Shown here: in pieces, positions 1,805 through 23,193 of the stretch | Numbering within the stretch: position 1 is the stretch's first letter | How the letters are laid out: the number at the start of each line of letters is the position of its first letter | DNA from: a virus | Virus record (IMG/VR): IMGVR_UViG_3300028595_000053 | Location: 1-28,100 of that record | DNA: 28,100 nucleotides | Reading direction: 5' to 3' (one strand) | Program-made: the position numbers and the translations under genes | The notes under the pieces: generated by a model | The model's database searches: none | Told to the model about the DNA's origin: nothing | The model's input: the letters and a program-made list of their open reading frames with translations, nothing else

Positions 1805-2115
1805 TGAGCTACGAAGAGTGCCGCCACGGCGTTATAGTGCGCATAGCTGGCGTGGAGACCGGCGAGCGTTGCCGGCTGTGCGAAATGCTCTCCACCGGAC
1901 CACACACGCGCAACTGGCCGCCGCTCAAACTCTGCTGCACCAACTGCGGCCTGGTGCTGGTGCCCACGGCGCATGACACCGGGGACGGGTGGGACCTGCA
2001 TCTCGGCGGTTGCCATTGCGAGAAGCCCGCCGAGTTGGTGCAGTTCGGGTGGCCCGAGGGCGTGGAGTCGCTGACGGCCGATGATCTGCGCGCGATGGGC
2101 TTCATCATCGTATGA
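1804..2115 (+). CDS. Cys-rich putative zinc-binding protein upstream of terminase
   Basis: A 103-residue protein starts at ATG 1804, preceded by a good AAGAAGGAGGT site and overlapping the upstream TGA. Cysteines sit at C6, C23/C26 (CRLC), C44/C45/C48 (CCTNC) and C70/C72 (CHC), with several His, so one or two zinc sites are likely. The C-terminus (LTADDLRAMGFIIV) is hydrophobic. It overlaps the terminase start by four bases (ATGA). The position directly before TerL is where a small terminase subunit often lies, but the sequence has no helix-turn-helix that I can see, so I do not call it TerS. Confidence 0.65.
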   Translation: MSYEECRHGVIVRIAGVETGERCRLCEMLSTGPHTRNWPPLKLCCTNCGLVLVPTAHDTGDGWDLHLGGCHCEKPAELVQFGWPEGVESLTADDLRAMGFIIV

Positions 2116-4139
2116 CCCCCTCCGCCCACTCCGCCCCTGCCGTTTGGGACGAGCAGGATCTCCGCGAGCGCGAGCGCTGGTACGAGCGCTGGGCTCGCGA
2201 GGCGCTCGAGCCCACGCCGGAGCTGTCGCTGGCCGAGTGGGCCGAGGACCACATCGAGATCCCCGAGGGCGAACCCATCCCCGGGCGGCTGGACCTGCGC
2301 TACTCGCCCTACATGCGCGGCATCCTGGACCTCTTCAGCAACCCTGACGTGAGCGAGGTCACGGTGGTGAAGTCCACGCAGGTGGGCTGGACGCTGATGA
2401 TCGTCGTGCTCGCGCTCTACACCAACACCTACCGGCGGGCGCGGGTATTGCTGGTGCAGCCCACCGATCCGGCTGCCAGGCGGTTCAACACCACGCGCCT
2501 GCAGCCGGTGCTGGACGCCTCGGCGAAGCTCGCGCACCTGTCGCCGAAGGGGCGGGGTCGCAGCGCCAGACAGGTGGACTACACGAACGGCGCGATGACG
2601 CGCTTCGCCGGCGCGGGCTCGCCGACCGACCTGGGCGAAATCTCGGTGCCGGTGGTCATCAACGACGAGTTCGAGAAGTACCCGCGCCACTCCGGGCCGG
2701 AGGGCGACCCGATCAAGCTTGGTGCCGAGCGCATGCGCTGGTGGCGCGACAAGTTGCACGTCAAGGGCACGACCCCCAGCGTCGAAAGCGGCTACAGCTT
2801 CCGCGAGATGAACTCCGCGCCCTGCCAGATGCGCTACTACGTGAAGTGTCCCTACTGCAGGACCGCCCAGGCGCTCTACTGGGACGGCGAGGCCGAGATC
2901 ATCACCCGCGAGGTCAAGGGCGAGGAGATCCACGTCAAGGTCCCCGGCCCGGCCGGGCGCATCAACTGGCCGAAGGACGAGCGTGGCCACGCCCTTCACA
3001 CCCCCGAGGAGATCGACGCGCAGGGCCTGGCCTGGTACGAGTGCGGCAAGTGCGAGCGGCACTGGAGCGAGCAGCAGAAGGACCGCATCATCGAGCGCGG
3101 CGAGTGGCGGGTGATCGGCGGCGGGCGCCCGCACGGCCACGTGGGCGTGCACCTCTGGGCGGTGCTGAGCTCGCAGCTCACCTTCTCGCGGATCGCCAGG
3201 GAGTGGCTGACCAGCGAAGGCCGCGCCGAGCTCGAGCAGAACTTCATGAACTCGTGGCTGGGCCGCAACTATCGCCAGAAGGGCGACCGGCCCACCTACG
3301 AGTTCATGGTCTCGCGCAAGAAGATCGGCCGGCTTTGCGGCCAGGTACCCGAGGGCGTGCGCTTCCTCACTGCGGGCATCGACGTTCATAAGGCCCTGCA
3401 GTACTGGATGGTGTGGGGCTGGGGCGCGGGCTTTACCGGGTGGCTCATCGACGCCGGGCGCGAGGACGTGGCCGCCAGCGGCGAGGAAGCCTGGCAGCGC
3501 GTCTACCGGGCCTGCACGCGCGACTACCCGGTGGTCACGGCCGACGGCGCGCTGGGCAGCCTGGCGGTAGGCGAGGGCGCGGGGATCGCGCTGATGGACT
3601 CCGGCTGGTACAAGCGCCAGGACAACGACCCCGACGAGAACGTGAACGAGGCCGAGGTCATCGAGCGCTGCGCCAGCTGGAACGACGCGCACGGCACGCG
3701 CCTCTTTCACCCGTCGAAGGGCGGATCGGTCCGCGCGCAGTTCCCGCCGTTGAAGTTCAGCGGTAAGACCTACGACGTCACGCGCACGGGCTACAAGCTC
3801 AAGCACCGGCTCGAGCTGCACGTCTTCAATCCCTGGTTCTTCAAGAAGGACTTCTACGCGCGGCTGGCGCGCCCCGGTGAAGTCGGGGGCCTCTGGCTGC
3901 CGGCGGACCTCCGCGAGATCTACATGCGCCAGATGATGGCGGAGGAGCGGGTCACGAAGCCCGACGGCACCGAGGACTTCGAGAAGCGCGGCGAGAACCA
4001 CGGTCTGGACTGCGCGGTGATGTGCCTGGCGGCGGCCTGGCGCTTCCGGCTGTACCTGGATGCCGGGCGGCCGGCGGCCGGCGGCGGCGGCAAGAGCACG
4101 CGGCTTTCGGACATCCAGCGCGCGCGGGAGCGGCGATAG
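2112..4139 (+). CDS. phage terminase large subunit, GpA family
   Basis: This 675-residue protein is the DNA-packaging motor: an ATPase that pumps DNA into the procapsid and a nuclease that cuts the concatemer. The N-terminal ATPase carries a Walker A-like KSTQVGWT (residues 87-94), the lambda-GpA style variant, and a Walker B-like VVINDEFEKYP with D185/E186. A zinc-ribbon insertion follows with C246/C249 and C311/C314. The C-terminal nuclease half shows GIDVHK (D424), TADGALGS (D478) and NHGLDCAVM (D633), fitting three metal-binding acids. Length matches the GpA family (about 640-700). The start overlaps the previous gene by four bases, and a gpW-like protein and a lambda-B-type portal follow, the order expected of lambda-like packaging modules. 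Confidence 0.95.
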   Translation: MTPSAHSAPAVWDEQDLRERERWYERWAREALEPTPELSLAEWAEDHIEIPEGEPIPGRLDLRYSPYMRGILDLFSNPDVSEVTVVKSTQVGWTLMIVVLALYTNTYRRARVLLVQPTDPAARRFNTTRLQPVLDASAKLAHLSPKGRGRSARQVDYTNGAMTRFAGAGSPTDLGEISVPVVINDEFEKYPRHSGPEGDPIKLGAERMRWWRDKLHVKGTTPSVESGYSFREMNSAPCQMRYYVKCPYCRTAQALYWDGEAEIITREVKGEEIHVKVPGPAGRINWPKDERGHALHTPEEIDAQGLAWYECGKCERHWSEQQKDRIIERGEWRVIGGGRPHGHVGVHLWAVLSSQLTFSRIAREWLTSEGRAELEQNFMNSWLGRNYRQKGDRPTYEFMVSRKKIGRLCGQVPEGVRFLTAGIDVHKALQYWMVWGWGAGFTGWLIDAGREDVAASGEEAWQRVYRACTRDYPVVTADGALGSLAVGEGAGIALMDSGWYKRQDNDPDENVNEAEVIERCASWNDAHGTRLFHPSKGGSVRAQFPPLKFSGKTYDVTRTGYKLKHRLELHVFNPWFFKKDFYARLARPGEVGGLWLPADLREIYMRQMMAEERVTKPDGTEDFEKRGENHGLDCAVMCLAAAWRFRLYLDAGRPAAGGGGKSTRLSDIQRARERR

Positions 4140-4448
4140 ATGGCCAAGAGCCTGCGGCTGTCGGATCTGCAGCGTGGTCCGGACGGCTCCCGCGTATGCC
4201 GGCGGTGCGGCTGCCGGCACATCGACGGCGGCAGGTGCCGGCATTGCGGCGCACCGGTGGTGCGCGGCGAAAAGCGGGGCGCGCCGGAGGAAGAGGGCGT
4301 GGGTATCGCCTGTCCGGGTTGCGGTGGGATGCGCACGGTGCCTATCCGCAAGCGCGCGATGCCAGGCCGGGTGATCCGCCGGCGGGAGTGCCTCAGCTGC
4401 GGACGGCGCTGGAACACCGTCGAAATGACCCGTGAGGACGAGGGTTAG
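4140..4448 (+). CDS. double zinc-ribbon protein with NrdR-like C-terminal ribbon
   Basis: A 102-residue basic protein abuts the terminase stop codon. It has two Cys clusters. The first is C20/C23/C25 with C33/C36. The second is CPGCGG (C58/C61) followed by RRRECLSCGRRWNT (C84/C87). The second resembles the zinc ribbon at the N-terminus of NrdR (CPxC...RRRRxCxxCxxRFTT) and, more loosely, Ogr/Delta-type phage activators. No ATP-cone follows, so it is not a full NrdR. A DNA-binding or regulatory role, or a terminase accessory role, is plausible from its place right after TerL, but is inference. Confidence 0.75.
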   Translation: MAKSLRLSDLQRGPDGSRVCRRCGCRHIDGGRCRHCGAPVVRGEKRGAPEEEGVGIACPGCGGMRTVPIRKRAMPGRVIRRRECLSCGRRWNTVEMTREDEG

Positions 4449-4545
4449 AGCTCGCCCAAGTGATATAAACCGCAGTATACTGCGCTTCGGCGCGATATAT
4501 TCCCGAACCGCTACAGAAGCCGGCCGAAACTGCCTATGTAGTAGC
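4449..4545 (+). promoter_or_regulatory. AT-richer intergenic region with palindrome and UUCG hairpin
   Basis: These 97 bases are one of the few non-coding stretches in the head region and are noticeably more AT-rich than their surroundings. They contain the perfect 14-base palindrome CGCAGTATACTGCG (4471-4484), then GCGC-TTCG-GCGC (4482-4493), a hairpin with the very stable C(UUCG)G loop, and two similar TGATATA / CGATATAT elements flanking them. TATACT at 4476-4481 is 5/6 to a -10 box, but no good -35 sits at the right distance. It could be an operator, a promoter or an RNA-processing hairpin between the terminase and portal units. Confidence 0.4.
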
Positions 4546-4791
4546 ATGGCAAAAACAGCGAGCGAGATGGTCACTCTCATCGACGAGGCCATCGAAGACA
4601 TCCTCGGCAGCAAGTACGAGCAGGTCAGCGTCAACGGCCGGTCGTTCACGAAGCACGACCTGGCCGACCTACGTTTGATGCGGGAGTACTACCAGCGCCA
4701 GGCGTTGGTTACGGCGACCACCACTCCGCGCGGGCTGCGCATCAGTCCCATCCATAACGGCGGCACGGTCCCCAAGACGGGGCAGAGCTGA
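4546..4791 (+). CDS. gpW-like head-tail joining protein
   Basis: I chose ATG 4546 (81 residues); an in-frame upstream ATG at 4432 would overlap the previous gene and read through the palindromic intergenic region. The product matches the gpW pattern: an N-terminal helix (residues about 5-20), a short strand pair around VSVNGRSFTKHDL, and a second helix LADLRLMREYYQRQ. GpW in lambda completes the head after packaging and sits between terminase and portal, exactly the position here. It overlaps the portal ATG by one base. The C-terminal tail (about residues 58-81) is longer than in gpW. Confidence 0.75.
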   Translation: MAKTASEMVTLIDEAIEDILGSKYEQVSVNGRSFTKHDLADLRLMREYYQRQALVTATTTPRGLRISPIHNGGTVPKTGQS

Positions 4792-6389
4792 TGCAGGTCA
4801 AGGCGATGCCTCTATCCGGTCCGATGCCCGTGCAGGCTGCCGCGCAGTCTCGGGGCATCATCCTCGACCAGTACGGCCGGCCGCTGCGCCTTTCGCGGGT
4901 GCGGCCAATGCGCCGCGCGCATGGCAGTTACGACGCCGCGCGCGACTCGAACCAGCTTGCCAACGTGTGGGCGCAGGCCACCGGGGCCAGCGGCGACGTG
5001 GTCGCTTCGCCGGGGGTGCGGGCCAAGCTCCGCAACCGTGCGGCGTACGAGCTGCGCAATAACTGCTACCTGCGCGCCCAGGTGGACACGCGCGCGATGT
5101 ACGTGGTCGGGCGTTGCCCCCGTCTGCAGCTGGATACCAACGAATTCGGCGGCAGCGAGGAGTACGACCGCACGAAGGAACGCAGCTGGCAGGACTGGGC
5201 CGACGAGGTCCGTTTGGGCGAGAAGCTCAAGCTGGCGGAGATCCTCGAGACGCAGGACGGCGAGGTCTTCCTGGCGATGGTAGTCAACCAGCGGCTGCGC
5301 AGCCCGGTCAAGCTGGACCTGATAGTCGTGGAGGCCGCGCGGGTCAGTGGCCAGGTCGACAAGCTTCGCCGGCGCCACTACTACGACGGCATCGAGTACG
5401 ACGAACTGGGCAACCCGCTCAACTACGACATCCTCGACGAGCACCCCGGCGGGTCGAACTCGATCACCACATACCAGGGCCTGGCGCTGGGCTCGTATAC
5501 GTCGAAGCCCGCGGACGAGATTATCCACCGCTTCCGTCCGCTGCGCGCGCAGCGCCGCGGGGTGAGCGAGATCCAGCCCGCACTGCCGCTCGGCGCGCAG
5601 CTCCGGCGGCTGACTCTGGCAGTGCTTACCGCCGCCGAGAACGTGGCCGCCTTCTCGTGGATCGTCTACAGCGATCACCCGGGCGCCGAGCCGGTGACTA
5701 TCGATCCGCTGGACGTCATCGACCTGGAATACGGATCGGGGCTGACCATGCCGGCCGGCTGGAAGATGCAGCAGATGCAGGCCCAGCAGCCGGCGGCCAC
5801 GTACCGCGAGTTCAAGCGCGAGATCCTGAACGAGATGGGCCGCTGCCTGTACGAGCCTGCCAACATCGCCCTGGGCGACAGCAGCGGCTACAACTACAGT
5901 TCCGGCCGCCTGGACCACCAGGCATTTTTCAAGTGGATCGAGTGCGCGCAGTACCAGCTGGGTCTGGACTGCACCACCGTCTACGCGCGCTGGAACGACT
6001 TCTACCAGTTCACGCCAGGGGCCCTGGTCTGGAACAAGTGGCGCCCCGGCGCCACCGAGCCTCACACCTGGCACTTCGACGGCATCGAGCACGTCGACCC
6101 CTACAAAGAGGCGGTCGCGCAGCAGGTGCGCCTGGCCAGCCTGACCACCAACCTCTCGCGCGAGTGGGCCCGCCAGGGCCTCAGCGCCGAGCAGGGGCTG
6201 CGTCGCCTGGCCAGGGACTACGACCTGGTGCGCGAGCTCAAACTCAGCGCGCCGGCCGGCGCCACCAACGGCGAGGGTTCGATACAGGCCGCGGGCTGGT
6301 TGATGGCTGACCGGGTGGCCGAGGCGGTCGCCGAGCAGGTGGACCCCGCGGCCATCGCCGAAGCACTGGCCGCGATGAATTCGAGATGA
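4791..6389 (+). CDS. phage portal protein, lambda gpB family
   Basis: This 532-residue protein forms the dodecameric ring at the special capsid vertex through which DNA enters and leaves. The N-terminal segment SYDAARDSNQLANVW followed by SPGVRAKLRNRAAYELRNN and YVVGRCPRLQL is the signature of lambda-type portals. The middle keeps EIIHRFRPLRAQRRGVSEIQPALP, the stem-clip region motif (lambda-like RxGQxRGxS...LAP). ALGDSSGYNYSSGRLDHQAFFKWIE near residue 365 is also typical. Length is normal for the family (about 480-550). It starts one base into the gpW-like stop codon. Confidence 0.93.
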   Translation: MQVKAMPLSGPMPVQAAAQSRGIILDQYGRPLRLSRVRPMRRAHGSYDAARDSNQLANVWAQATGASGDVVASPGVRAKLRNRAAYELRNNCYLRAQVDTRAMYVVGRCPRLQLDTNEFGGSEEYDRTKERSWQDWADEVRLGEKLKLAEILETQDGEVFLAMVVNQRLRSPVKLDLIVVEAARVSGQVDKLRRRHYYDGIEYDELGNPLNYDILDEHPGGSNSITTYQGLALGSYTSKPADEIIHRFRPLRAQRRGVSEIQPALPLGAQLRRLTLAVLTAAENVAAFSWIVYSDHPGAEPVTIDPLDVIDLEYGSGLTMPAGWKMQQMQAQQPAATYREFKREILNEMGRCLYEPANIALGDSSGYNYSSGRLDHQAFFKWIECAQYQLGLDCTTVYARWNDFYQFTPGALVWNKWRPGATEPHTWHFDGIEHVDPYKEAVAQQVRLASLTTNLSREWARQGLSAEQGLRRLARDYDLVRELKLSAPAGATNGEGSIQAAGWLMADRVAEAVAEQVDPAAIAEALAAMNSR

Positions 6390-6399
6390 GGAGCTTCTG

Positions 6400-8589
6400 A
6401 TGCGCAACTTCCTGCCACCGTTCGTATGCAGTTCGGCCGCCGACGCGCAGCGCCAGCAGCGCCCGTTCCGGATGGTGGCCGGCGGCGAGGGGCCGGTGCA
6501 GGTGTCCGCCGCCTCGGCGGCCGTCGAGGGCGGGGAGCCCTCGCTGCCGACCTTCACGATGGTGGGCTACACCGGCGGCGAGATGTGGATCAACTGGTAC
6601 GGCCGGGTGGTGGTGGACCTGTCGACCGCGCGCATGGCCAACCCGATCCGCGCGCTTCTGGAACACGATCCCAGCCAGATCGTCGGGCACGGCGAGGCCG
6701 AGGTTTCGGGCAAACGCATCCTGGCCAGCGGCGTGATCAGCGGCGGCGGCGAGGCCGCGCGGACGGTGGTGGACAGCGCGAAGAACGGCTTTCCCTGGCA
6801 GGCGTCGATAGGTGCCGACCCCACCACGCTGATTCTCGAAGAGGTCCGCGCCGGCGCCAGCGTCAAGGTCAACGACAAGACGTTCAAGGGGCCGCTCACC
6901 GTAGTACGCGGTGCGGTCATTCGCGAGATCAGTTTCGTGGCCCTCGGGGCCGACGGCAAAACCAGCGGCAACGTAGCCGCGCAGTTCGTAGGAGGATCAG
7001 GAATGGAGTTCAACACATGGCTTCGGGCGCACGGCTACGACCCCGACCAGCTCAGCGACGGGGAGCTCGCGCTCCTCAAGCGGGGCTTCGAGGCCGAGGC
7101 CGCCGCGGGGGATAACGGCAGGGTGGACGGCGGCGACGACGCCGGCGCCGATGCCGGGGACGATCCGGACGGCGGGGCACAGCCGCAGCCGGTACAGGCC
7201 GGGCAGCACCATGCGCCGGATGCGGCGGACGCCGCCGCCGCGGCGGTGCGTGCCGAGCGCGTGCGCCAGGCGGGCATCGAGGCGACCTGCACCCGGGCGC
7301 TGGCCGCCGGCTGGTGCAAGGGCGAGAAGACGGTCAAGAAGGTCCAGGCTCTCGCGGCAGCCGCGCGGTCCGAAGAGACCAGCGTCGAGGAGTTCCAGCA
7401 GCAGGTTCTGGAGGCCAGCTACTCGGCGGTGACCCCGGTTACCGCCGGTGTGGTGGTGGTCGACGGCTCCACCGACGCGCGGGCGCTGGAGGCGGCCATG
7501 TGCATGCAGGCGCGCGTCAGCGACGAGGTGCTGACCCGCGACTTCCAGGCGCAGACCCTGGACTCCGCGAATCGCATGCGGCGCATCCCGCTCAAGGCGT
7601 TGATCGCCGAGGCGGCGGCGCTGGACGGCGTGGTCCTCTCGCGCCGCGAGGAGGGTACCGACCGCTGGATCCGCGCGGCGGCCACGTCCCTCTCGCTCAC
7701 CGGCATCCTCAGCAACACCGCCAACAAGGTGATGCTTGAGGCATACCGCAAGCCGGAGTCGGTCATCCGCAAGATCTTCGGCATCAGCCAGGTCTCGGAC
7801 TTCAAGCAGCACACCCGCTATCGCCTGACCAGCGACATGGTCTTCAAAAAGGTGACCGTGGGCGGGGAGCTGAAGCACGGCGAGGTCGGCGAGCAGAGCT
7901 TCACCCAGCAGGCCGACACCTACGGGAGGTACTTCGAGCTGGACCGCCAGATGATCGTCAACGACGATCTCGGCGCGTTCCTGAGAGTCCCGCGGCTCAT
8001 GGGCCGCGGCGCGGCCCTGTCCATCGAGGAGATCGGCTTCACGCTGATCCTGGCCAACACCGGCAGCTTCTTCGCCGGCGCCAAGGGCAACTACGGTTCG
8101 GGTGCGGGCACCGCGTTAAGCACCACCAGCCTCAGCACGGCCGTGCAGTACCTCGAGCAGCAGACCTATCCGCAGGGCAAGCCGGTGGTCATCATGGCCA
8201 AGTTCCTGGTGGTCCCGTCGGAGCTGCGCACCACGGCCGAGGAGATCTACAAGGGCCAGAACCTGATCGTCACGGCCCTGGGCGCCACCGACGCGGCGGC
8301 GATCCAGCCTGGCCGCAACATCCACGCCGGGCGGTACGTGCCGCTCAGCACCCCGTACCTCTCGAACAGCAGCTTCCACGCTTCGGCCAGCGCCACCGGC
8401 TGGTACCTCTTCGGCGACCCCGAGGACGTGCCGGCCTTCGACCTGGCGTTCCTGAACGGCGTGGACGTGCCGACCATCGAGCAGGTCGGGGTACCGCCGC
8501 AGCACCTCGGCATCGGGTTCCGCGGCTACCAGGACGTGGGCGTGGCGCAGCAGGACCACCGCGGCGCCGTGTTCATGGCGGGCGCTTAA
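6400..8589 (+). CDS. prohead protease-major capsid protein fusion
   Basis: This 729-residue frame starts at ATG 6400 behind GAGGAG (6388-6393). Residues about 40-190 form an S78-type prohead protease: candidate catalytic H89 in LLEHDPSQIVGHGE, S136 in FPWQASIGAD and E176 in REISFVALGAD. A Gly/Asp/Ala/Gln-rich linker lies at about 230-280, and the rest is a major capsid domain resembling Mu gpT-type shells (IFGISQVSDFKQHTRYRLTSD, YFELDRQMIVNDDLGAFLR). Such fused protease/scaffold/capsid genes let the protease free itself and trim the scaffold segment during maturation. A strong internal start at 7003 (listed separately) may give capsid protein without protease. The catalytic residues are assigned by motif only. 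Confidence 0.88.
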   Translation: MRNFLPPFVCSSAADAQRQQRPFRMVAGGEGPVQVSAASAAVEGGEPSLPTFTMVGYTGGEMWINWYGRVVVDLSTARMANPIRALLEHDPSQIVGHGEAEVSGKRILASGVISGGGEAARTVVDSAKNGFPWQASIGADPTTLILEEVRAGASVKVNDKTFKGPLTVVRGAVIREISFVALGADGKTSGNVAAQFVGGSGMEFNTWLRAHGYDPDQLSDGELALLKRGFEAEAAAGDNGRVDGGDDAGADAGDDPDGGAQPQPVQAGQHHAPDAADAAAAAVRAERVRQAGIEATCTRALAAGWCKGEKTVKKVQALAAAARSEETSVEEFQQQVLEASYSAVTPVTAGVVVVDGSTDARALEAAMCMQARVSDEVLTRDFQAQTLDSANRMRRIPLKALIAEAAALDGVVLSRREEGTDRWIRAAATSLSLTGILSNTANKVMLEAYRKPESVIRKIFGISQVSDFKQHTRYRLTSDMVFKKVTVGGELKHGEVGEQSFTQQADTYGRYFELDRQMIVNDDLGAFLRVPRLMGRGAALSIEEIGFTLILANTGSFFAGAKGNYGSGAGTALSTTSLSTAVQYLEQQTYPQGKPVVIMAKFLVVPSELRTTAEEIYKGQNLIVTALGATDAAAIQPGRNIHAGRYVPLSTPYLSNSSFHASASATGWYLFGDPEDVPAFDLAFLNGVDVPTIEQVGVPPQHLGIGFRGYQDVGVAQQDHRGAVFMAGA
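7003..8589 (+). CDS. major capsid protein from internal in-frame start
   Basis: Inside the fusion frame, ATG 7003 (residue 202) is preceded by TAGGAGGAT (6989-6997), a near-perfect ribosome-binding site seven bases upstream. Translation here gives a 528-residue product beginning MEFNTWLRAHGYDPDQLSD, a typical start for a capsid protein with an N-terminal scaffold (delta) domain. The predicted protease domain ends just before this ATG, so the site separates the two functions exactly. Making extra capsid protein from an internal start would solve the stoichiometry problem of a 1:1 fusion, as in the nested C/Nu3 arrangement of lambda. Whether it is used is inferred. Confidence 0.65.
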   Translation: MEFNTWLRAHGYDPDQLSDGELALLKRGFEAEAAAGDNGRVDGGDDAGADAGDDPDGGAQPQPVQAGQHHAPDAADAAAAAVRAERVRQAGIEATCTRALAAGWCKGEKTVKKVQALAAAARSEETSVEEFQQQVLEASYSAVTPVTAGVVVVDGSTDARALEAAMCMQARVSDEVLTRDFQAQTLDSANRMRRIPLKALIAEAAALDGVVLSRREEGTDRWIRAAATSLSLTGILSNTANKVMLEAYRKPESVIRKIFGISQVSDFKQHTRYRLTSDMVFKKVTVGGELKHGEVGEQSFTQQADTYGRYFELDRQMIVNDDLGAFLRVPRLMGRGAALSIEEIGFTLILANTGSFFAGAKGNYGSGAGTALSTTSLSTAVQYLEQQTYPQGKPVVIMAKFLVVPSELRTTAEEIYKGQNLIVTALGATDAAAIQPGRNIHAGRYVPLSTPYLSNSSFHASASATGWYLFGDPEDVPAFDLAFLNGVDVPTIEQVGVPPQHLGIGFRGYQDVGVAQQDHRGAVFMAGA

Positions 8590-8641
8590 CCGGGGGCCTT
8601 CCGGGCTCTCTCTGAATCGGAAAGGATAGGAGGACAGGGCA

Positions 8642-9676
8642 ATGACAGTTGAAGCTGCCCCCAAGGCAAGGATCTACCAGCCGGGCAAGGTGCTCGACTA
8701 CACCGCGTCCGCCGACAAGAGCGGCGGCGACGTGGTCGAGATCGCCGGGCTGTGCGGAGTACTGGAAGCCGACGTCAGTAACGGCTACCAGGTGGGCGCC
8801 CTCGTCGAGGGCGTGGTCAAGGTCGACGCCAAGAACGAGGCGTTCACCGCCGGACAGAACGTCTGGTTCGACAGCGACGGCGACCCCTACGGGGGAACCG
8901 CCGGTACCGGCGCGGCGACCGGAACCCCGGTCAACGCCACCGGCGACATGCTGATGGGCACGGCCGTCTACGCGGCCGGGGCCACCCAGGGCTACGTCTT
9001 GGTCGCCCTCAACAAGGAAAGCCAGCTCAACGGCCGCAAGATCGGGACGTTCTCGAACCCCGAGAGCTGGGCCGCCGCGGACGAGTGGGAAGAGAAGCAT
9101 ATCGGCTGCAGCCTGGCTACCGCCAGCAAGCCCGCCAGCCGCATGCGCCTCTCGAACCTGCAGGACCAGACGGAAGGAGCGCTGATCGCCAGGCACGTGC
9201 AGTGCTACTCCGGCTCGGGCTTCGACGTTGCCGAGCTGGGCGCTCTGCTGGTCGAGGCGGGCATGAAGGGCGCGTCCGGAGTGCTGCTGGCCAGCACCGA
9301 GGGCGGCTACGCGGCCCGCTTCAAGTTCGAGGACGATTACGCCACCGGCGGACAGTCCGACGGCGCGCCGACCTACACCGGGCAGGTGTCGGTCATCAGC
9401 CTGCAGGCGCAGATCTCCGCGAACCCCACTGGCGAGTTCTGCGCGATCAACGTGGACTGCCAGGCGGCGGGGGCCGGAACGGCCACCCCGTTCGACTCGA
9501 TCCTCCACGTCGAGGCCGACGGGAAGAACCCGGACATCGTCAACCTGATCAAGTTCGAGGCTGCCAGCGCGTGCGCGGTGGAATCGGCCGGGACCTACTC
9601 GACCGCAGACGGGTACTTCCTCGTCTCGGTCAACGGGTCGACCTATCGCGTGCCGTTCTTCGCGGCCGTCGACTGA
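8642..9676 (+). CDS. DUF2190-like capsid decoration protein with extra C-terminal domain
   Basis: A 344-residue protein with a strong AGGAGG site (8627-8635 region) before ATG 8642. Residues 1 to about 125 match the DUF2190 pattern found beside capsid genes: YQPGKVLDYTASADKSGGDVVEI, then GALVEGVVKVDAKNEAFTAGQ and VWFDSDGDPY. The family is thought to stabilise or decorate the shell. Family members are usually about 110-130 residues, so residues about 130-344 are an extension. It is Gly/Ala/Ser-rich and predicted beta (ALLVEAGMKGASGVLLAS, VSVISLQAQISANPTGEFCAIN, GYFLVSVNGSTYRVPF). That part could project from the shell as a surface domain. Confidence 0.78.
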   Translation: MTVEAAPKARIYQPGKVLDYTASADKSGGDVVEIAGLCGVLEADVSNGYQVGALVEGVVKVDAKNEAFTAGQNVWFDSDGDPYGGTAGTGAATGTPVNATGDMLMGTAVYAAGATQGYVLVALNKESQLNGRKIGTFSNPESWAAADEWEEKHIGCSLATASKPASRMRLSNLQDQTEGALIARHVQCYSGSGFDVAELGALLVEAGMKGASGVLLASTEGGYAARFKFEDDYATGGQSDGAPTYTGQVSVISLQAQISANPTGEFCAINVDCQAAGAGTATPFDSILHVEADGKNPDIVNLIKFEAASACAVESAGTYSTADGYFLVSVNGSTYRVPFFAAVD

Positions 9677-9696
9677 TCCAGGGCAACTGAGGCAAT

Positions 9697-9727
9697 CCCC
9701 CGGGGCGGCACTGGGCCGCCCCGGGGG
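9697..9727 (+). terminator. 13-bp GC-only stem-loop after the decoration gene
   Basis: CCCCCGGGGCGGC at 9697-9709 pairs perfectly with 9715-9727 around a five-base loop (ACTGG). It begins 20 bases after the decoration-gene stop. No T-run follows, so it is not a textbook intrinsic terminator. It may act as an attenuator, a transcript-stabilising 3' structure for the highly expressed capsid genes, or a U-tract-less terminator. Confidence 0.55.
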
Positions 9728-9763
9728 CCACTACCGGACCCCGGGAGAGAGAGGAGAGTTTCC

Positions 9764-10180
9764 ATGAAGGTCAAGTTGCACCTCCGCGAGCGCTTCCAGC
9801 TGATCGGTCTGCTGCCCCCCAAGGGCAGCATCGCCACCATGCGCGTGCGGCGCGACACGCGCATGGCCCTCGCGCCCAGCGAGGACGAGATAGCGCGCTG
9901 GAACATCCGCGACGCCGACGGCGGCACGGTGATGTTCGATACCCACCGGATCGAGACGGATCTAGAGAGTGGCCAGCGCCGGCCGGTGCTGGCGTTCGAT
10001 CCCGACGCCGGCAAGAAGGTCCCCGTGCCCCTGGACCTCACCGCCGAGGTCGAGATAGGCACCGCGGGCATGGAGCTGCTGGTCAAGGCGCTCAAAGAAG
10101 CCGACCGCGCCGGGCGCCTGGGCGAGGAACACATTGACCTCTACGAGCGCTTCGTCGAGAGCGAGGCCGGGAAGGAATGA
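9764..10180 (+). CDS. hypothetical head-region protein
   Basis: A 138-residue protein with a good GAGAGGAGAG site before ATG 9764. The N-terminal half is predicted beta (KVKLHLRERFQLIGLLPPKGS, TMRVRRDTRMALAPSEDEIARWNI), and the C-terminal third is helical and charged (MELLVKALKEADRAGRLGEEHIDLYERFV). I do not recognise the family. Its place between the capsid decoration gene and the neck connector suggests a head-assembly or accessory role. The stop is followed by 76 bases that include the 14-base palindrome GGGGGCCGGCCCCC. Confidence 0.65.
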   Translation: MKVKLHLRERFQLIGLLPPKGSIATMRVRRDTRMALAPSEDEIARWNIRDADGGTVMFDTHRIETDLESGQRRPVLAFDPDAGKKVPVPLDLTAEVEIGTAGMELLVKALKEADRAGRLGEEHIDLYERFVESEAGKE

Positions 10181-10256
10181 CTTTGTCGCCGTGCGGGGCG
10201 CCGGTCTCTCACCCGGGGGCCGGCCCCCTCGGCGGCTTGAGAAAGGAGAGTTCGAC

Positions 10257-10781
10257 GTGAAAGAGCTGCTTTGCCCCGAGTGTAGCGCCCCAGCCGAATT
10301 CAACGGCGAGCGCTATCCCTACCACCACAAGTTCTTCCGGCCCGCGGTCTGCGGTAGCTGCGGCTATCGCTGGGGGCAGCCGGTGAACGCCGACGGCCAG
10401 CTGATCGGCACCGAGCCGCCCGCGCCGGTGGTCGTCGCCGGCAGTCTCGAGGATCGCGACGGCGAAGGCGGTTCGCTTCCGGACATGGACGCCGGCAACT
10501 ACGCCTCGAACGCGATGGACGTCAGCGACCCAAACGTCGATAGCGGCACCGGCCCCGCCGAGCCGGAGGTCGACCCGGCCCGCGAGTTCGAGCTCGTCAA
10601 AATCGGCGAGGGCTTCGAGCTCGACGGGATCGCCGAAGGCGACCAGCTCCTGGTTGACTACAAGGGCGAGCCGCGGCGCATCACGGTCAACGACGTGACG
10701 TCCCGGACCGTGGTCGCCGAGATCGACGGCGAGCCCGACATCCGCATCCGCAAGGCACAGGTCGTCGGCCGCTTCGAGTAG
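10257..10781 (+). CDS. zinc-ribbon protein with C-terminal beta domain
   Basis: I chose GTG 10257 because AAGGAGAG lies seven bases upstream and the protein then starts MKELLCPECSAP; the longer frame upstream overlaps the previous gene. The 174-residue product has one zinc ribbon (C6/C9 and C32/C35). A Gly/Asp/Ser/Pro-rich linker (about 60-110) follows. The C-terminal domain (about 112-174) has alternating hydrophobics (FELVKIGEGFELDGI, QLLVDYKGEPRRITVND, VVAEIDGEPDIRIRKAQVVG) and may be an SH3-like barrel. The function is unknown. Confidence 0.68.
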   Translation: MKELLCPECSAPAEFNGERYPYHHKFFRPAVCGSCGYRWGQPVNADGQLIGTEPPAPVVVAGSLEDRDGEGGSLPDMDAGNYASNAMDVSDPNVDSGTGPAEPEVDPAREFELVKIGEGFELDGIAEGDQLLVDYKGEPRRITVNDVTSRTVVAEIDGEPDIRIRKAQVVGRFE

Positions 10782-10830
10782 GGGCGCGCGCGTGTCCCGC
10801 TTCACGTGTCCCGTGTCCCGGGAGTAGATC

Positions 10831-11190
10831 GTGTCCACCTTCGCCGACACCGAACTCGCCGAGGCCGCTTCGGAGATCTCCGACACGGTCTCGGCGGAGT
10901 GGTGGCCGCTGGGCGTCGAGGCCAACAAGGTCACGCTCGTGAACGTGGTCTGGAACCCCGGGCGCGTCGCCGAGATGCGGTACGAGGACGCGCAACATCA
11001 AGTCAGGCGCGGCATCCTCACGGTCACCGACGGCCTGGTCACCAGCCCCGACACGCGCGACGCCTACAAGCTGGACGGGGTGGTCTACGCCTGCGAGGAG
11101 GTGCTCGAGACCGTGCCGTTTGTCGACGTTCAGCTGGCGGCCCGCGACGAGCTCGAGGTCGTGCGGCAGACGCATCGCATCAGGAGGTAG
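10831..11190 (+). CDS. probable head-tail connector (neck) protein
   Basis: A 119-residue frame starts at GTG 10831. The order of elements fits small head-completion/stopper proteins: a short helix (TELAEAASEISDTVSAEWW), then a beta-rich core (VTLVNVVWNPGRVAEMRY, RRGILTVTDGLVTS, YKLDGVVYACEEVLETV). No exact family match can be made by eye. The position after capsid genes agrees with lambda FII-like or SPP1 gp16-like stoppers. GTG is preceded by GGGAGTAGATC, a modest binding site. The stop is followed six bases later by the next gene, whose AGGAGG overlaps this gene's last codons. Confidence 0.6.
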   Translation: MSTFADTELAEAASEISDTVSAEWWPLGVEANKVTLVNVVWNPGRVAEMRYEDAQHQVRRGILTVTDGLVTSPDTRDAYKLDGVVYACEEVLETVPFVDVQLAARDELEVVRQTHRIRR

Positions 11191-11195
11191 CCGTG

Positions 11196-11879
11196 ATGTC
11201 ACACCGAACCCGCGTCGAGGTACTGTGCGCGCTGGCGCTGGTGGGCGCTGCGATCGCCGGCGGGGGCTGCACCCCGCGCGGCGGCATTCCCGGCGTGCCC
11301 AACGTGCGCATGCCCGAGAAGGGGAAGTCGCCCCGCAGCGCCGCGGAGTGGCGCGCCCACGCCGAGAAAGAGCACGCCAGGGCCGACGCCCTGGAGCGCG
11401 ACGCGGCCCAGCACCGCGCGGCCGCCGTCGACGCCGAGCAACGCGCCCGGGCCGCCGAGGCCGCGGCCCGGCAGCGCGTAATGCATATCACTGCCGGCGT
11501 GTGTTTCCTGCTGGCGGTGCTGTGCGTCCTGGGCGTAGTGTTCGCGGCAGGCTACCGCGTCAAGTTCCTGGTCGGCGTTGTGGCGTTCGTGCTGGCCGGC
11601 GTGGCCAGCCTGGGCATCGCCTGGCTGCTGGCACACCCGTGGGTGATGTGGGCGGCACTGGGCGCCGTGGCGCTGCTGCTGGGCGGGTGGGTGGTCTACC
11701 AGCTGCGCAAGGACCGCCAGCTGGGCGACGTGCTGCTGAGCGCCGGCGAGCGGGCCAAAACGCGTTGGGAGGACTTCCGCGATCACATGCGAGGCTACAT
11801 CCCCAGCGAAAGCGACCTGGACAAATACGTGGACAAGCGCCGGCGCCAGCTTGGCTGGACGTCGCAGCCTGACAGGTGA
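11196..11879 (+). CDS. putative lipoprotein with coiled coil and three membrane helices
   Basis: A 227-residue protein; AGGAGG at 11182-11187 favours ATG 11196. The N-terminus has Arg residues, a hydrophobic stretch and AGGGC with C25, a loose lipobox. Residues about 48-94 are Ala/Glu/Arg/His-rich and predicted coiled coil. Three hydrophobic segments follow at about 96-117, 119-140 and 141-163, then a basic amphipathic tail (RAKTRWEDFRDHMRGY). A lipobox plus coiled coil plus membrane anchor recalls unimolecular spanins, and the multi-helix part recalls a holin, so a lysis role is possible. It could equally be a membrane protein for superinfection exclusion. No endolysin lies beside it. Confidence 0.65.
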   Translation: MSHRTRVEVLCALALVGAAIAGGGCTPRGGIPGVPNVRMPEKGKSPRSAAEWRAHAEKEHARADALERDAAQHRAAAVDAEQRARAAEAAARQRVMHITAGVCFLLAVLCVLGVVFAAGYRVKFLVGVVAFVLAGVASLGIAWLLAHPWVMWAALGAVALLLGGWVVYQLRKDRQLGDVLLSAGERAKTRWEDFRDHMRGYIPSESDLDKYVDKRRRQLGWTSQPDR

Positions 11880-11886
11880 CGCGCAG

Positions 11887-12342
11887 ATGCCTGACCAGAC
11901 CCCCGACCGCATTGGCGACCTGCTGGCCGAAGTGCGCGGCCTGCGCAAAGACTGCGGCACGGAGTTTTCGAGCGTCAAGGGCCTGGTGGGCCAGACCCGC
12001 GAAGAGCTGGCCGGCCTGCGCCAGCAGATGGCCGACCACGTCAACGCCCCGAGCCTACACCCCGCACAACCGTGCCAGGGCCTGGTTGACCACCGCGCCG
12101 ACGCCACCGCGCACCCGGCCCGGCCGTGCACCGAGCTGGGCCGGCACCTGGAGCGCCACGCATGCACCGCCGACACGCAGGCCGCGGCCGCAGTGGCAAC
12201 GCGCGGCATCGACTGGCGCCAGGTGGTGGCCGGCGTGCTGATTAGCCTGCTGTCCACGCTGCTGCTGGCCGCCCTGGGCGGCGGCCTGGCGTACCACTAC
12301 GCGGGCGGTGGCGCGCCGGCTGCTAACACCGGGGGGCCGTAA
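11887..12342 (+). CDS. single-pass membrane protein with duplicated His/Cys motif
   Basis: A 151-residue protein starts at ATG 11887, eight bases after the previous stop. Residues about 5-50 are predicted coiled coil (DRIGDLLAEVRGLRKD, VGQTREELAGLRQQM). Then HPAxPCxxLxxH occurs twice with an 18-residue period: H58/C63/H69 and H76/C81/H87, followed by H91 and C93. This looks like a metal-binding or redox site. One transmembrane helix lies at about 113-137 (VVAGVLISLLSTLLLAALGG), with a short Gly/Ala tail outside. Coiled coil and one C-terminal helix would fit a holin/antiholin or membrane sensor; the function is unknown. Confidence 0.68.
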   Translation: MPDQTPDRIGDLLAEVRGLRKDCGTEFSSVKGLVGQTREELAGLRQQMADHVNAPSLHPAQPCQGLVDHRADATAHPARPCTELGRHLERHACTADTQAAAAVATRGIDWRQVVAGVLISLLSTLLLAALGGGLAYHYAGGGAPAANTGGP

Positions 12343-12433
12343 CAACGCCGGACTGGATAACGCCGGTTTGCATCATCGCGCTGCTGGTGCTGGCCGTGAT
12401 TACCTGGCCCTGGCCGTGGGAGGACTAGCCGAC

Positions 12434-12802
12434 ATGGACCCCAACAAAATCCGCACGCTGCGGGCCTACTGTGACGCGCTGCTGGAAGCCATCGACATAG
12501 CGGACGAGTCTGGCCCCTCGCAGCAGGACCCGCAGGATGTTCTGGACGACTGGCGCACCGATAGCTCTAATCGCGTGCTCGGCGGGTCTGGCTTCAAGGC
12601 TGAGATAATCGGCGGCTACGCCACAGCCCCAACAGTCACAAGCGCGGACTTAGAAGCGTTGGGGGTGTCTAAGTCAGTCGCGGCCGAGATGATTGTCGAG
12701 CGCGACCGCGTGCGTACTGAGGCCATCCGCCGCAGAGACGCTATCGGCGACCCGCCGACCACTGGCGAATTCAACCCGGCGGCCGCTCCCGAGGAGAGGT
12801 AG
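12434..12802 (+). CDS. small hypothetical protein
   Basis: I chose ATG 12434 (122 residues) with GGGAGG about ten bases upstream; the frame is open further left, but that part overlaps the previous gene and reads poorly. The protein starts MDPNKIRTLRAYCDALLEAIDIADE, predicted helical. A Gly/Thr-rich middle follows, then a second helical part (LEALGVSKSVAAEMIVERDRVRTEAIRRRDAI) and a Pro-rich tail. No family is recognised. It immediately precedes two fibre-like genes. Confidence 0.55.
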   Translation: MDPNKIRTLRAYCDALLEAIDIADESGPSQQDPQDVLDDWRTDSSNRVLGGSGFKAEIIGGYATAPTVTSADLEALGVSKSVAAEMIVERDRVRTEAIRRRDAIGDPPTTGEFNPAAAPEER

Positions 12803-13837: not shown

Positions 13838-15127
13838 ATGTTCGATGATTTTTTGGTCAAGGCCACCACGAGCAAAATTCTTGAGGTCATGGTCCGCGAT
13901 TCCTCGACCGGAGCCGGCAAAACCGGTCTGGCACATGGCGACGTAACCGCCAGCTATTGCCGAGAGGGCGCAACGCGGCAAGCCATTAGCCTGTCAGCGG
14001 GCACGGCGGGCGACTCCTACAGCAGCGGCAAATGGTGCGAGGTTGACAGCACCAACCAGAAGGGGCTGTATCAGCTGCACATCCCCGATGCTGCGCTGGC
14101 CTCGGGCGTGGACGCAGTGACAATAAGTCTGCAGGCCGCCGGGATGATCGACAAGGCAATCAGCCTAAAACTCATAGGCGCGAACTTACGCGATGGAGTG
14201 CGGGCGGGGCTAACGGCGCTTCCAAATGCCGCCGCTGACGCTGCCGGAGGCTTACCAATCAGCGATGATGGCGAGTTAGACCTTGATACTCTTCTGGCGC
14301 ACCTTGATGCCGACATCAGTTCCCGCAGCGACGGAACGGGCGTAACGTTGCACGGTGACTATGACGCCGCGAAGACCGCGGCGCAGGCGGGCGATGCGAT
14401 GGATTTGGTTGAAGATGCTGTGGACGCAGCCGCTTTAAAGGCCGATGCCGTCACAGAAATCCAGTCAGGGCTAGCACCCGCTGGCGAATATGACACTGAA
14501 ATGGCGCATCTTGATGTAGACGTGTCTTCGCGCAGCGACGGAACCGGCGTCACCCTCCACGGCGATTATGACGCCGCGAAGACCGCGGCGCAGGCGGGCG
14601 ATGCGATGGATTTGGTTGAAGATGCTGTGGACGCAGCCGCTTTAAAGGCCGATGCCGTCACAGAAATCCAGTCAGGGCTAGCACCCGCTGGCGAATATGA
14701 CACTGAAATGGCGCATCTTGATGTAGACGTGTCTTCGCGCAGCGACGGAACCGGCGTCACCCTACACGGCGACTATGATGCAGCGAAGACTGCCGCGCAG
14801 GCGGGCAATGCAATGGACCTGGTCGAAAATGCTGTGGACAGCACGGCGCTGGCAGAAAGCGCCGCGACCGAAATCAGTCAATCAATGCTCCTTGCGCTGA
14901 TTGACAATATAAGTTCCATCCGCAACGGGCTGGGCCTTGACCTGGTCCTGGAACACATGACCCGCAAGCGCACAATAGAGCTTGGTGACACGACCTACGA
15001 ATATATCTGGAACGCCGCGGGCGACGCCAAAGTGTACCGGCGCGCGCTGACCGATAACGCTGGCGCCGCGGTCGCTGCCGACACCACCGGGCCGATCAAC
15101 TGCTCCGCCTGGGAGGATGTACCTTGA
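13838..15127 (+). CDS. repeat-containing phage structural/fibre-like protein
   Basis: A 429-residue protein starts at ATG 13838, three bases after the previous stop. The N-terminal domain (1 to about 130) is beta-rich (KILEVMVRDSSTGAGKTGL, GLYQLHIPDAALASGVDAVTISL). GLTALPNAAADAAGGLPISD then leads into a helical Ala/Asp-rich array of 69-residue units: unit 1 at 154-222, unit 2 at 223-291, and a diverged third at 292 to about 345. Units 1 and 2 are nearly identical in DNA. The C-terminal domain (about 360-429) ends in KRTIELGDTTYEYIWNAAGDAKVYRRAL. Similar modular proteins are frequent in environmental phages. It shares the lower G+C of its neighbour. A fibre or whisker role is inferred. Confidence 0.6.
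   Translation: MFDDFLVKATTSKILEVMVRDSSTGAGKTGLAHGDVTASYCREGATRQAISLSAGTAGDSYSSGKWCEVDSTNQKGLYQLHIPDAALASGVDAVTISLQAAGMIDKAISLKLIGANLRDGVRAGLTALPNAAADAAGGLPISDDGELDLDTLLAHLDADISSRSDGTGVTLHGDYDAAKTAAQAGDAMDLVEDAVDAAALKADAVTEIQSGLAPAGEYDTEMAHLDVDVSSRSDGTGVTLHGDYDAAKTAAQAGDAMDLVEDAVDAAALKADAVTEIQSGLAPAGEYDTEMAHLDVDVSSRSDGTGVTLHGDYDAAKTAAQAGNAMDLVENAVDSTALAESAATEISQSMLLALIDNISSIRNGLGLDLVLEHMTRKRTIELGDTTYEYIWNAAGDAKVYRRALTDNAGAAVAADTTGPINCSAWEDVP
14360..14763 (+). repeat. 197-bp perfect direct duplication, period 207 bp
   Basis: Bases 14360-14556 recur without a mismatch at 14567-14763, a 207-base period that keeps the reading frame (69 codons). The flanks diverge at once (for example CACGGTGAC versus CACGGCGAT before the first copy), and a third unit after 14764 is recognisable but much changed. 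The perfect identity, including third codon positions, indicates a recent duplication or gene conversion. Confidence 0.95.
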
Positions 15128-21594: not shown

Positions 21595-23193
21595 ATGCCC
21601 GGCTTCGGCCACGACGCCCTCGACGCCCACATCGCCGACCTGATCGGCGGGTGGCGCATGGAGGAGGCCAGCGGCAACCTGGCCGACGTGCTGGGCGTGC
21701 TCACGGGAGTGGTCAGCGGCACGCCCAACTACCAGCAGACCGGCGCCGTCGACGACTGTATCGACTTCGACGGGTCCACCGACTACGTCACGATCGGCGA
21801 CACCGGCGAGACCTGCCTGACGCTGGCGCTGTGGGTCTACACGGCCGGCGGTATCACGAGGACCATGAGCTCCGAGGTGCTGCTGCAGTACGGGGACGAT
21901 GCCGACTACGGTGATGGCCGTCGGGAAGTGATCTTCCTGGGGCCGTGCACCGGTAAGCTGACCGACGAGACCGTGTCCATGTACGGCAACCCCCCCGGCC
22001 AGTCCAACACCGCGATTACCGAGGAGCTGTCCAGCGGGTGGCACCACCTGGTGTTCCGCTGGAACAGCGGAGAGTCGCGCTACGACATCATCGTCGACGG
22101 CGTCACCAAAACGGTCACCAAGGGCACCAGCGACGGGCACGTGGCGCAGATGGACATGGACGAGCTGATCCTCGGCAAGTGGAGCTACGACTCCAACGCC
22201 ATGTTTACCGGGCGCATGGATGAGGTGTTCGCGTGGAAGGTGGCCATCAGCGACGCGGCGGTGGCGGCGCTCTACAACGGCGGCAGCGGCATCAAGTGGG
22301 CCGACTACCTGCCACAGGCCCGCGGGGCGTTCAGCCTGCTCAACGCGTTCAGCGCCGAGGCGCGGGGCAGGTGGGCCATCAACGACACCTACACCGCCGA
22401 GTGCCGCGGCCGGTATGCGGTGTGCAAGAGCTACTCCGCCGAGGCGCGTGGCAAGTGGGCGGTGCTCTCGCCGTACACCGCCGAGGCCCGCGGGGGGTTC
22501 AAGATCCTGTTGGGCTGCACGGCCGAGCTGCGCGGGCGCTACCGCGTGGCCAACGACGCGCTGGCGCGCTACGAGCTCTTCCGGGGGATAGACGCCGCGC
22601 CCGACTTCGACTCCGCCGCCTGGGAGACCTTCACGACGCTGCCGCACGAGACCGCGGCGCTGGACCCCGCGCCGGCCGGCACCGAGCGGACCTACCACTT
22701 CGTGCTCCGGGCGCGGAACAAGTACGACCTGGCGTCGAGCAACGTCCTGGCCTGGACCGTTACCGTCGACGAGAACGGCGACCAGGTAGTAACCAGGCCC
22801 AGCGCGCCGGACAGCTACGACGTGGAGCCCGCCGCGGCCGGGGCGGTGCTGGTCACGGCCAGCTATGCCTACACGCCCGACGGCGAGGACGCCGCCACCA
22901 AGTGGCTGATCTACATCACCGACGACGGCTCCGACCCGGATCCGGACCTCGACACGCCCACGGAGGTGACCATGCGCAAGAGCGACGGCACGGCCCGGCT
23001 GCGCTGGACCTCGAGCGCGTTCGACGACGGCGACACGATCAAGGTCCTGGTGCGCACCAGGCGCGTGGACGCCGGCCCGGTCAACGTCGACAGCGCCAAC
23101 ACCGACATCGTGAGCACCACCGCCGACACCGACGGCCCGGCGGCGCCGGCGGGCGGGATCTTCTTCGGGTCGCTCTACAAGCAGGGGCAGTAG
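21595..23193 (+). CDS. LamG-domain tail protein with six 14-residue repeats
   Basis: A 532-residue protein starting at ATG 21595. Residues about 15-230 form a LamG/concanavalin-like domain (GGWRMEEASGNLADVLG, DDCIDFDGSTDYVTIGD, CLTLALWVY, GWHHLVFRWNSGESRYDIIVDG, GRMDEVFAWKVAISDAAV), a fold that usually binds sugars. Residues 235-318 are six 14-residue tandem repeats of the form Y-[ST]-A-E-x-R-G-[RK]-[WYF]-x-[VI]. Residues about 320-530 look like two FN3-like modules (YHFVLRARNKYDLASSN, GAVLVTASYAYTPDG, KWLIYITDDGS, TIKVLVRTRRVDAG). The architecture fits a receptor-binding or adhesion protein at the tail tip. Confidence 0.65.
   Translation: MPGFGHDALDAHIADLIGGWRMEEASGNLADVLGVLTGVVSGTPNYQQTGAVDDCIDFDGSTDYVTIGDTGETCLTLALWVYTAGGITRTMSSEVLLQYGDDADYGDGRREVIFLGPCTGKLTDETVSMYGNPPGQSNTAITEELSSGWHHLVFRWNSGESRYDIIVDGVTKTVTKGTSDGHVAQMDMDELILGKWSYDSNAMFTGRMDEVFAWKVAISDAAVAALYNGGSGIKWADYLPQARGAFSLLNAFSAEARGRWAINDTYTAECRGRYAVCKSYSAEARGKWAVLSPYTAEARGGFKILLGCTAELRGRYRVANDALARYELFRGIDAAPDFDSAAWETFTTLPHETAALDPAPAGTERTYHFVLRARNKYDLASSNVLAWTVTVDENGDQVVTRPSAPDSYDVEPAAAGAVLVTASYAYTPDGEDAATKWLIYITDDGSDPDPDLDTPTEVTMRKSDGTARLRWTSSAFDDGDTIKVLVRTRRVDAGPVNVDSANTDIVSTTADTDGPAAPAGGIFFGSLYKQGQ
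22297..22548 (+). repeat. six tandem 42-bp units (14-residue protein repeat)
   Basis: Six 14-codon units code for repeats such as LNAFSAEARGRWAI, NDTYTAECRGRYAV, CKSYSAEARGKWAV, LSPYTAEARGGFKI and LLGCTAELRGRYRV; the first (WADYLPQARGAFSL) is the most diverged. Conserved positions are an aromatic at 4, A-E at 6-7, R-G at 9-10 and an aromatic at 12. The DNA is diverged, so the array is old and kept by selection on protein. Confidence 0.9.

Follow-up and report, generated by a model that had tools for sequence, protein, structure and literature searches.

The 729-codon gene at positions 6400–8589 of the window, the whole stretch of DNA analysed here (a 28.1-kb virus record with 67.8% G+C), is very probably a nested dual-start gene whose sequence specifies both a protease-capsid fusion and a 528-aa capsid protein; co-assembly of the two would dose the protease. 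The original prediction of these two products is strongly supported by conservation of an internal ATG and its Shine-Dalgarno (SD) element, by synonymous sites, by a protein block that begins at the internal Met, by the domain boundary and by relatives with split genes. Genes annotated as single protease/capsid fusions are probably dual-start genes as a rule, with gag-pol-like protease dosing, and their junction is likely to be a module boundary at which the protease has been exchanged and the genes split and joined several times. Head gene order across the window is lambda-like (terminase, gpW-like, portal, protease/capsid, cement), with the following features.

2112–4139: GpA-type terminase
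4432–4791: gpW-like adaptor
4791–6389: lambda-family portal
6387–6402, + strand: main start region, with the portal stop TGA at 6387–6389, AGGAG at 6389–6393 and ATG at 6400 (sequence; SD duplex −8.6 kcal/mol)
6400–8589, + strand: fused ORF of 729 aa, comprising a prohead protease, a delta/scaffold-like region and an HK97-fold major capsid protein (MCP) (ORF, profile matches)
6550–6978, + strand: protease domain, residues about 51–193 (phrog_3244 match, invariant columns, beta-rich confident model)
6982–7005, + strand: variable linker carrying the SD, codons 195–202, predicted to be disordered (pLDDT <50; residues 195–201 not conserved)
6990–6995, + strand: internal Shine-Dalgarno AGGAGG, 7 nt 5′ of the ATG (sequence; an SD-like element lies here in 131 of 146 fused ORFs)
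7003–7005, + strand: internal in-frame ATG, Met202, putative start of the 528-aa capsid protein (sequence; matches the capsid gene start of split relatives)
7003–7107, + strand: conserved small helical block MxFxxWLxAxGF...L, residues 202–236 (alignment; helices at 204–210 and 220–236)
7222–7428, + strand: helical delta/scaffold-like region, residues 275–343 (long helices in the model)
7477–8586, + strand: HK97-fold major capsid domain, residues about 360–729 (Foldseek, VIA)
8642–9676: cement protein

The fused ORF belongs to the prohead protease/MCP fusion family (phrog_4523 and relatives), with a protease upstream of an HK97-type MCP in one reading frame. It matches phrog_4523 'major head and protease protein' (2.9e-64, residues 176–728) and NF045541 (1.1e-69, residues 86–729); at 235.7 bits against a curated cut-off of 525 bits, it is a relative of NF045541 that lies outside membership by NCBI's strict cut-off. 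Its N-terminal part matches the phrog_3244 head maturation protease (3.8e-15, residues 80–189) and carries His89, Ser136 and Glu176, which are invariant in aligned relatives; H89 and S136, conserved in all of them, mark a U35-like prohead protease in which their catalytic role is putative. Pfam Phage_capsid_4 matches at 1.1e-41, and the phage capsid family covers residues 428–724. An AlphaFold2 model built on 47 sequences (alignment rows from the window and the scan loci only) is confident for the protease up to residue 193, has pLDDT <50 at 195–202, and continues with helices at 204–210 and 220–236, disorder at 239–272, long helices at 275–343, a linker and the capsid domain. This last domain has an HK97 fold in the model, by Foldseek (E 1.1e-7 to HK97 Head II) and by VIA (Z 12.8 to HK97 1ohg and Z 14.7 to an encapsulin). 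Matches in the fold search, which used the whole model, were all taken up by the capsid domain, and the only hits of a PDB sequence search were Mu gpT-like and a further major capsid protein. By analogy with HK97 organisation, residues 275–343 may have a delta/scaffold-like function. Elsewhere in the window, a 207-bp tandem unit (2.6 copies, 92% matches) occupies 14295–14839 within the ORF at 13838–15127; its length is divisible by three, and the encoded protein therefore contains repeats of 69 residues. An imperfect 42-bp tandem repeat (3.4 copies) lies at 22353–22493 inside the ORF at 21595–23193.

The internal start signal consists of TAGGAGGAT at 6989–6997 and an ATG at 7003–7005 that is in frame with ATG 6400, in the context ...CAG TTC GTA GGA GGA TCA GGA ATG GAG TTC..., where the ATG is codon 202. 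The GGAGG core (6991–6995) is 7 nt from the ATG and the end of the 9-mer is 5 nt from it. Both sets of coordinates had been given correctly beforehand, as had the lengths of the 729-residue fusion and its 528-residue internal product, and placement of the site at the protease end is borne out: the protease ends near residue 193, residues 195–202 are predicted to be disordered and a conserved block starts at Met202. No in-frame ATG of the ORF other than ATG 7003 has a 6-base SD match at normal spacing. The SD duplex here (−10.2 kcal/mol) is as strong as the one at the cement gene (8642) and stronger than the one at the ORF's own start (−8.6 kcal/mol). Codon shuffles place an ATG with an equally strong SD within codons 186–216 in 1.5% of cases, and AGGAGG-N5-9-ATG anywhere in frame in 8.7%. 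Taken alone, the window sequence is thus suggestive and only modestly unlikely by chance; comparison with relatives makes the case strong. A hairpin is predicted at 6971–7039 (z −3.1), with a strong 8-bp stem whose loop holds both the internal SD and its ATG; it was not seen in five relatives, so no regulatory role is claimed for it. Across the relatives compared, junction mRNA is less structured than control sites, which may reflect linker composition alone. A search for an internal promoter of sigma-70 type found no such site within 6200–8700.

The sample of relatives comprises 146 fused ORFs in which the protease core was mapped, the window included, from IMG/VR, GTDB genomes and annotated phages. 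An in-frame ATG lies no more than 45 codons past the protease core in 141 of the 146. In 131 (90%) the SD duplex of this junction ATG reaches −5.5 kcal/mol or better, compared with 16% of 3,843 control windows, at a threshold that was set after a first list had been seen and with which stricter thresholds agree; at −7 kcal/mol or better the values are 66% and 5.5%. The relatives are not independent, so counts were also made by cluster: the junction SD/ATG is present in 35 of 40 clusters at 60% identity and in 20 of 23 at 50%. About 10% of the fused ORFs fail the energy threshold. Four loci (L164, L166, L079, L096) lack an ATG within the stretch tested, and in at least one exception (LPPA33, L009) the SD/ATG sits just past it. 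Single-protein scans of viral contigs returned only a near-identical contig (L001), which was left out of the 146; it is unchanged at the junction and therefore carries no evolutionary information there. Compared with window positions 2394–12586, this contig has 13 single differences between 2491 and 3702 (in the terminase gene), a 6-base gap at 4434–4439 and, elsewhere, one difference only (8167).

Conservation of the GGAGG at synonymous sites, on which the original prediction had been made to depend, is evident when the same stretch is recoded synonymously and the same choice rule applied. Mean SD energy is −7.9 kcal/mol as observed compared with −5.9 after recoding, and the SD is stronger than recoding in 39 of 39 clusters (Wilcoxon p=4e-12); other ATGs in the fused genes have no SD excess over recoding. 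Applied gene by gene, the test has little power (16% of genes reach p<=0.1), in part since the residues KE and GG already favour SD-like DNA. SD cores occur in all three codon frames (82/43/6), which indicates that nucleotides have been kept rather than one amino-acid motif, and linker residues before the Met differ among relatives (GGSG, KEED, EENA, KGNAP, SENDT). Among the 19 closest aligned rows, M202 is present in 18 and F204 and W207 in all 19, while residues 195–201 are variable; protein conservation thus sets in again at the Met, as it would at an N-terminus.

Relatives with split genes place the capsid start at the same position. Protease and capsid are encoded by separate genes in Faecalibacterium phage FP_Epona (176 + 530 aa) and in Dulem virus 34 (185 + 513 aa); in both, the capsid gene begins at the junction position behind TAGGAGG or TGAGGAGG. 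Three further loci (L069, L073, L085) are also split, with a capsid gene that begins at the junction with an SD; the starts in L069 and L073 are apparently TTG. An alignment of split relatives, proposed beforehand as a check, thus identifies the junction as the capsid start in all five. The existence of split relatives with the same junction is also what would be expected if the site were a relic of once-separate genes that were joined by stop loss or a frame shift, with the old capsid start unused and only the fusion made and then cut by the protease. The SD often overlaps an out-of-frame stop (TAGGAGG in the window, TAAGGAGG in L066, TGAGGAGG in L076), as expected after a frame change; the TAG of TAGGAGG in the window is out of frame and is therefore not a stop simply lost in place. 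This relic reading, raised with the original prediction, is disfavoured and appears unlikely. The window falls in a deep set, starred in the capsid tree, that comprises 33 fused ORFs and a single lone capsid gene; split members are absent and the SD is retained across the whole set; an unused SD would decay, whereas this one persists at 90% over many clusters and lies above synonymous expectation in all of them. The starred set is mostly from Planctomycetota where the host is known. The complete chromosome of Planctomycetes bacterium syqfu (CP087563.1) has at least ten capsid-locus copies (L102–L105, L108, L110, L113, L122, L123, L144), which suggests many related prophages in one host.

Protease type has been exchanged at the internal-start junction. 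A ClpP-like protease replaces the U35-like protease before the same capsid family in nine loci (L005, L065, L067, L072, L074, L077, L092, L159, L172), and fusions with a ClpP-like protease (E. coli phage mEp043 and several contigs) carry an SD and ATG ahead of the capsid part. On the capsid tree, at least four changes of split/fused state and at least three of the ClpP-like protease label were counted by starred branches, with the start kept, although the exact change counts are tentative because this is a quick tree with long branches. SD conservation, the synonymous evidence, the starts of split relatives and these changes with the start kept indicate that the site is most likely a working internal start and not a relic.

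Internal SDs can, as is generally known, stimulate frameshifting, and in the window and several relatives the SD overlaps a stop in another frame, so the element could instead be a programmed pause or an SD-stimulated frameshift signal that ends some protease chains at an out-of-frame stop. This is highly improbable: an ATG follows the SD in 141 of 146 ORFs, protein conservation resumes there and, short of a systematic search, no conserved slippery site was noticed. There is equally little to commend a conserved amino-acid linker or protease cleavage site (e.g., K-E before the Met) whose likeness to an SD is accidental, because, although K-E and G-G codons favour SD-like DNA and the synonymous null already averages −5.9 kcal/mol, the linker residues differ, the SD occupies all three frames and energies beat that null in every cluster.

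With a dual-start gene, initiation at ATG 6400 would yield a protease-delta-MCP fusion, and initiation at the internal SD/ATG 7003 would yield a 528-aa delta-MCP without protease. Both products would have the C-terminal capsid domain in common and could thus co-assemble, so that the fusion, as the minority subunit, would deliver the protease to the prohead. The ratio of fusion to short form would be set by the two initiation rates and, once assembly is complete, the protease would cut away both the delta region and itself. Use of the internal start, the ratio, co-assembly and cleavage are proposed by analogy with lambda, Mu and HK97. The internal SD is stronger than the main SD in 65 of 145 fused ORFs, which makes the two about equal family-wide; an excess of the short capsid form is therefore a possibility suggested by the SD values of the window and by general need.

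The principle of an internal start in a protease gene is already known from lambda C/Nu3 and Mu I/Z, which are annotated as nested in-frame genes. Lambda C/nu3 resembles the window gene in that an in-frame internal start lies within a protease gene and both products end at a common stop (C 4418–5737, nu3 5132–5737), and lambda has a similar gene order with a gpA-type terminase, gpW, portal and protease. In lambda, however, the internal start yields nothing but scaffold and the capsid protein comes from a separate gene, E, whereas the short product of the window gene would comprise a scaffold-like region and the capsid protein; the same score rates the SD of the nu3 start as weak (−2.7). Mu I/Z likewise has an in-frame internal start with an SD in the protease gene, which yields the scaffold, but its major head protein T is encoded by a separate gene. 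Pseudomonas Mu-like phages retain the nested protease/scaffold arrangement (PMC4378225). The window gene has an in-frame internal start with an SD, 3′ of the protease domain and with a shared stop, but its short product includes the capsid domain rather than being a scaffold without one; it works like lambda C/Nu3 and Mu I/Z but is outside their class in the strict sense. Its short product resembles HK97 gp5 delta-MCP, in which a helical N-terminal region precedes the HK97 fold; HK97 uses two separate genes, gp4 for the protease and gp5 for delta-MCP. Annotated protease/MCP fusions (NF045540, NF045541, phrog_4523, phrog_133; Stenotrophomonas S1, Rhodobacter RcKemmy, Arthrobacter) have the same domain order in one ORF, and in S1 and RcKemmy this junction carries an SD and ATG, as in the window. 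Eight annotated fused records list one product each. In the accessible portions of two papers (PMC8601537, PMC5513430), fused protease/capsid genes are termed fusions and no internal start is mentioned. The literature covered, mostly open papers, yielded no account of an internal start in protease/MCP fusions, and an earlier description is possible; an internal start that serves the capsid protein itself, in a whole class of genes annotated as single fusions, appears to be undescribed.

Databases list one fusion product for these genes, which implies a protease on every capsid subunit. The conserved internal start resolves this puzzle and offers structural and proteomic studies a likely N-terminus of the capsid protein. 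It also allows protease dosing during prohead assembly to be tested with a few point changes, and the nesting of scaffold in protease known from lambda and Mu would extend to nesting of a whole capsid precursor.
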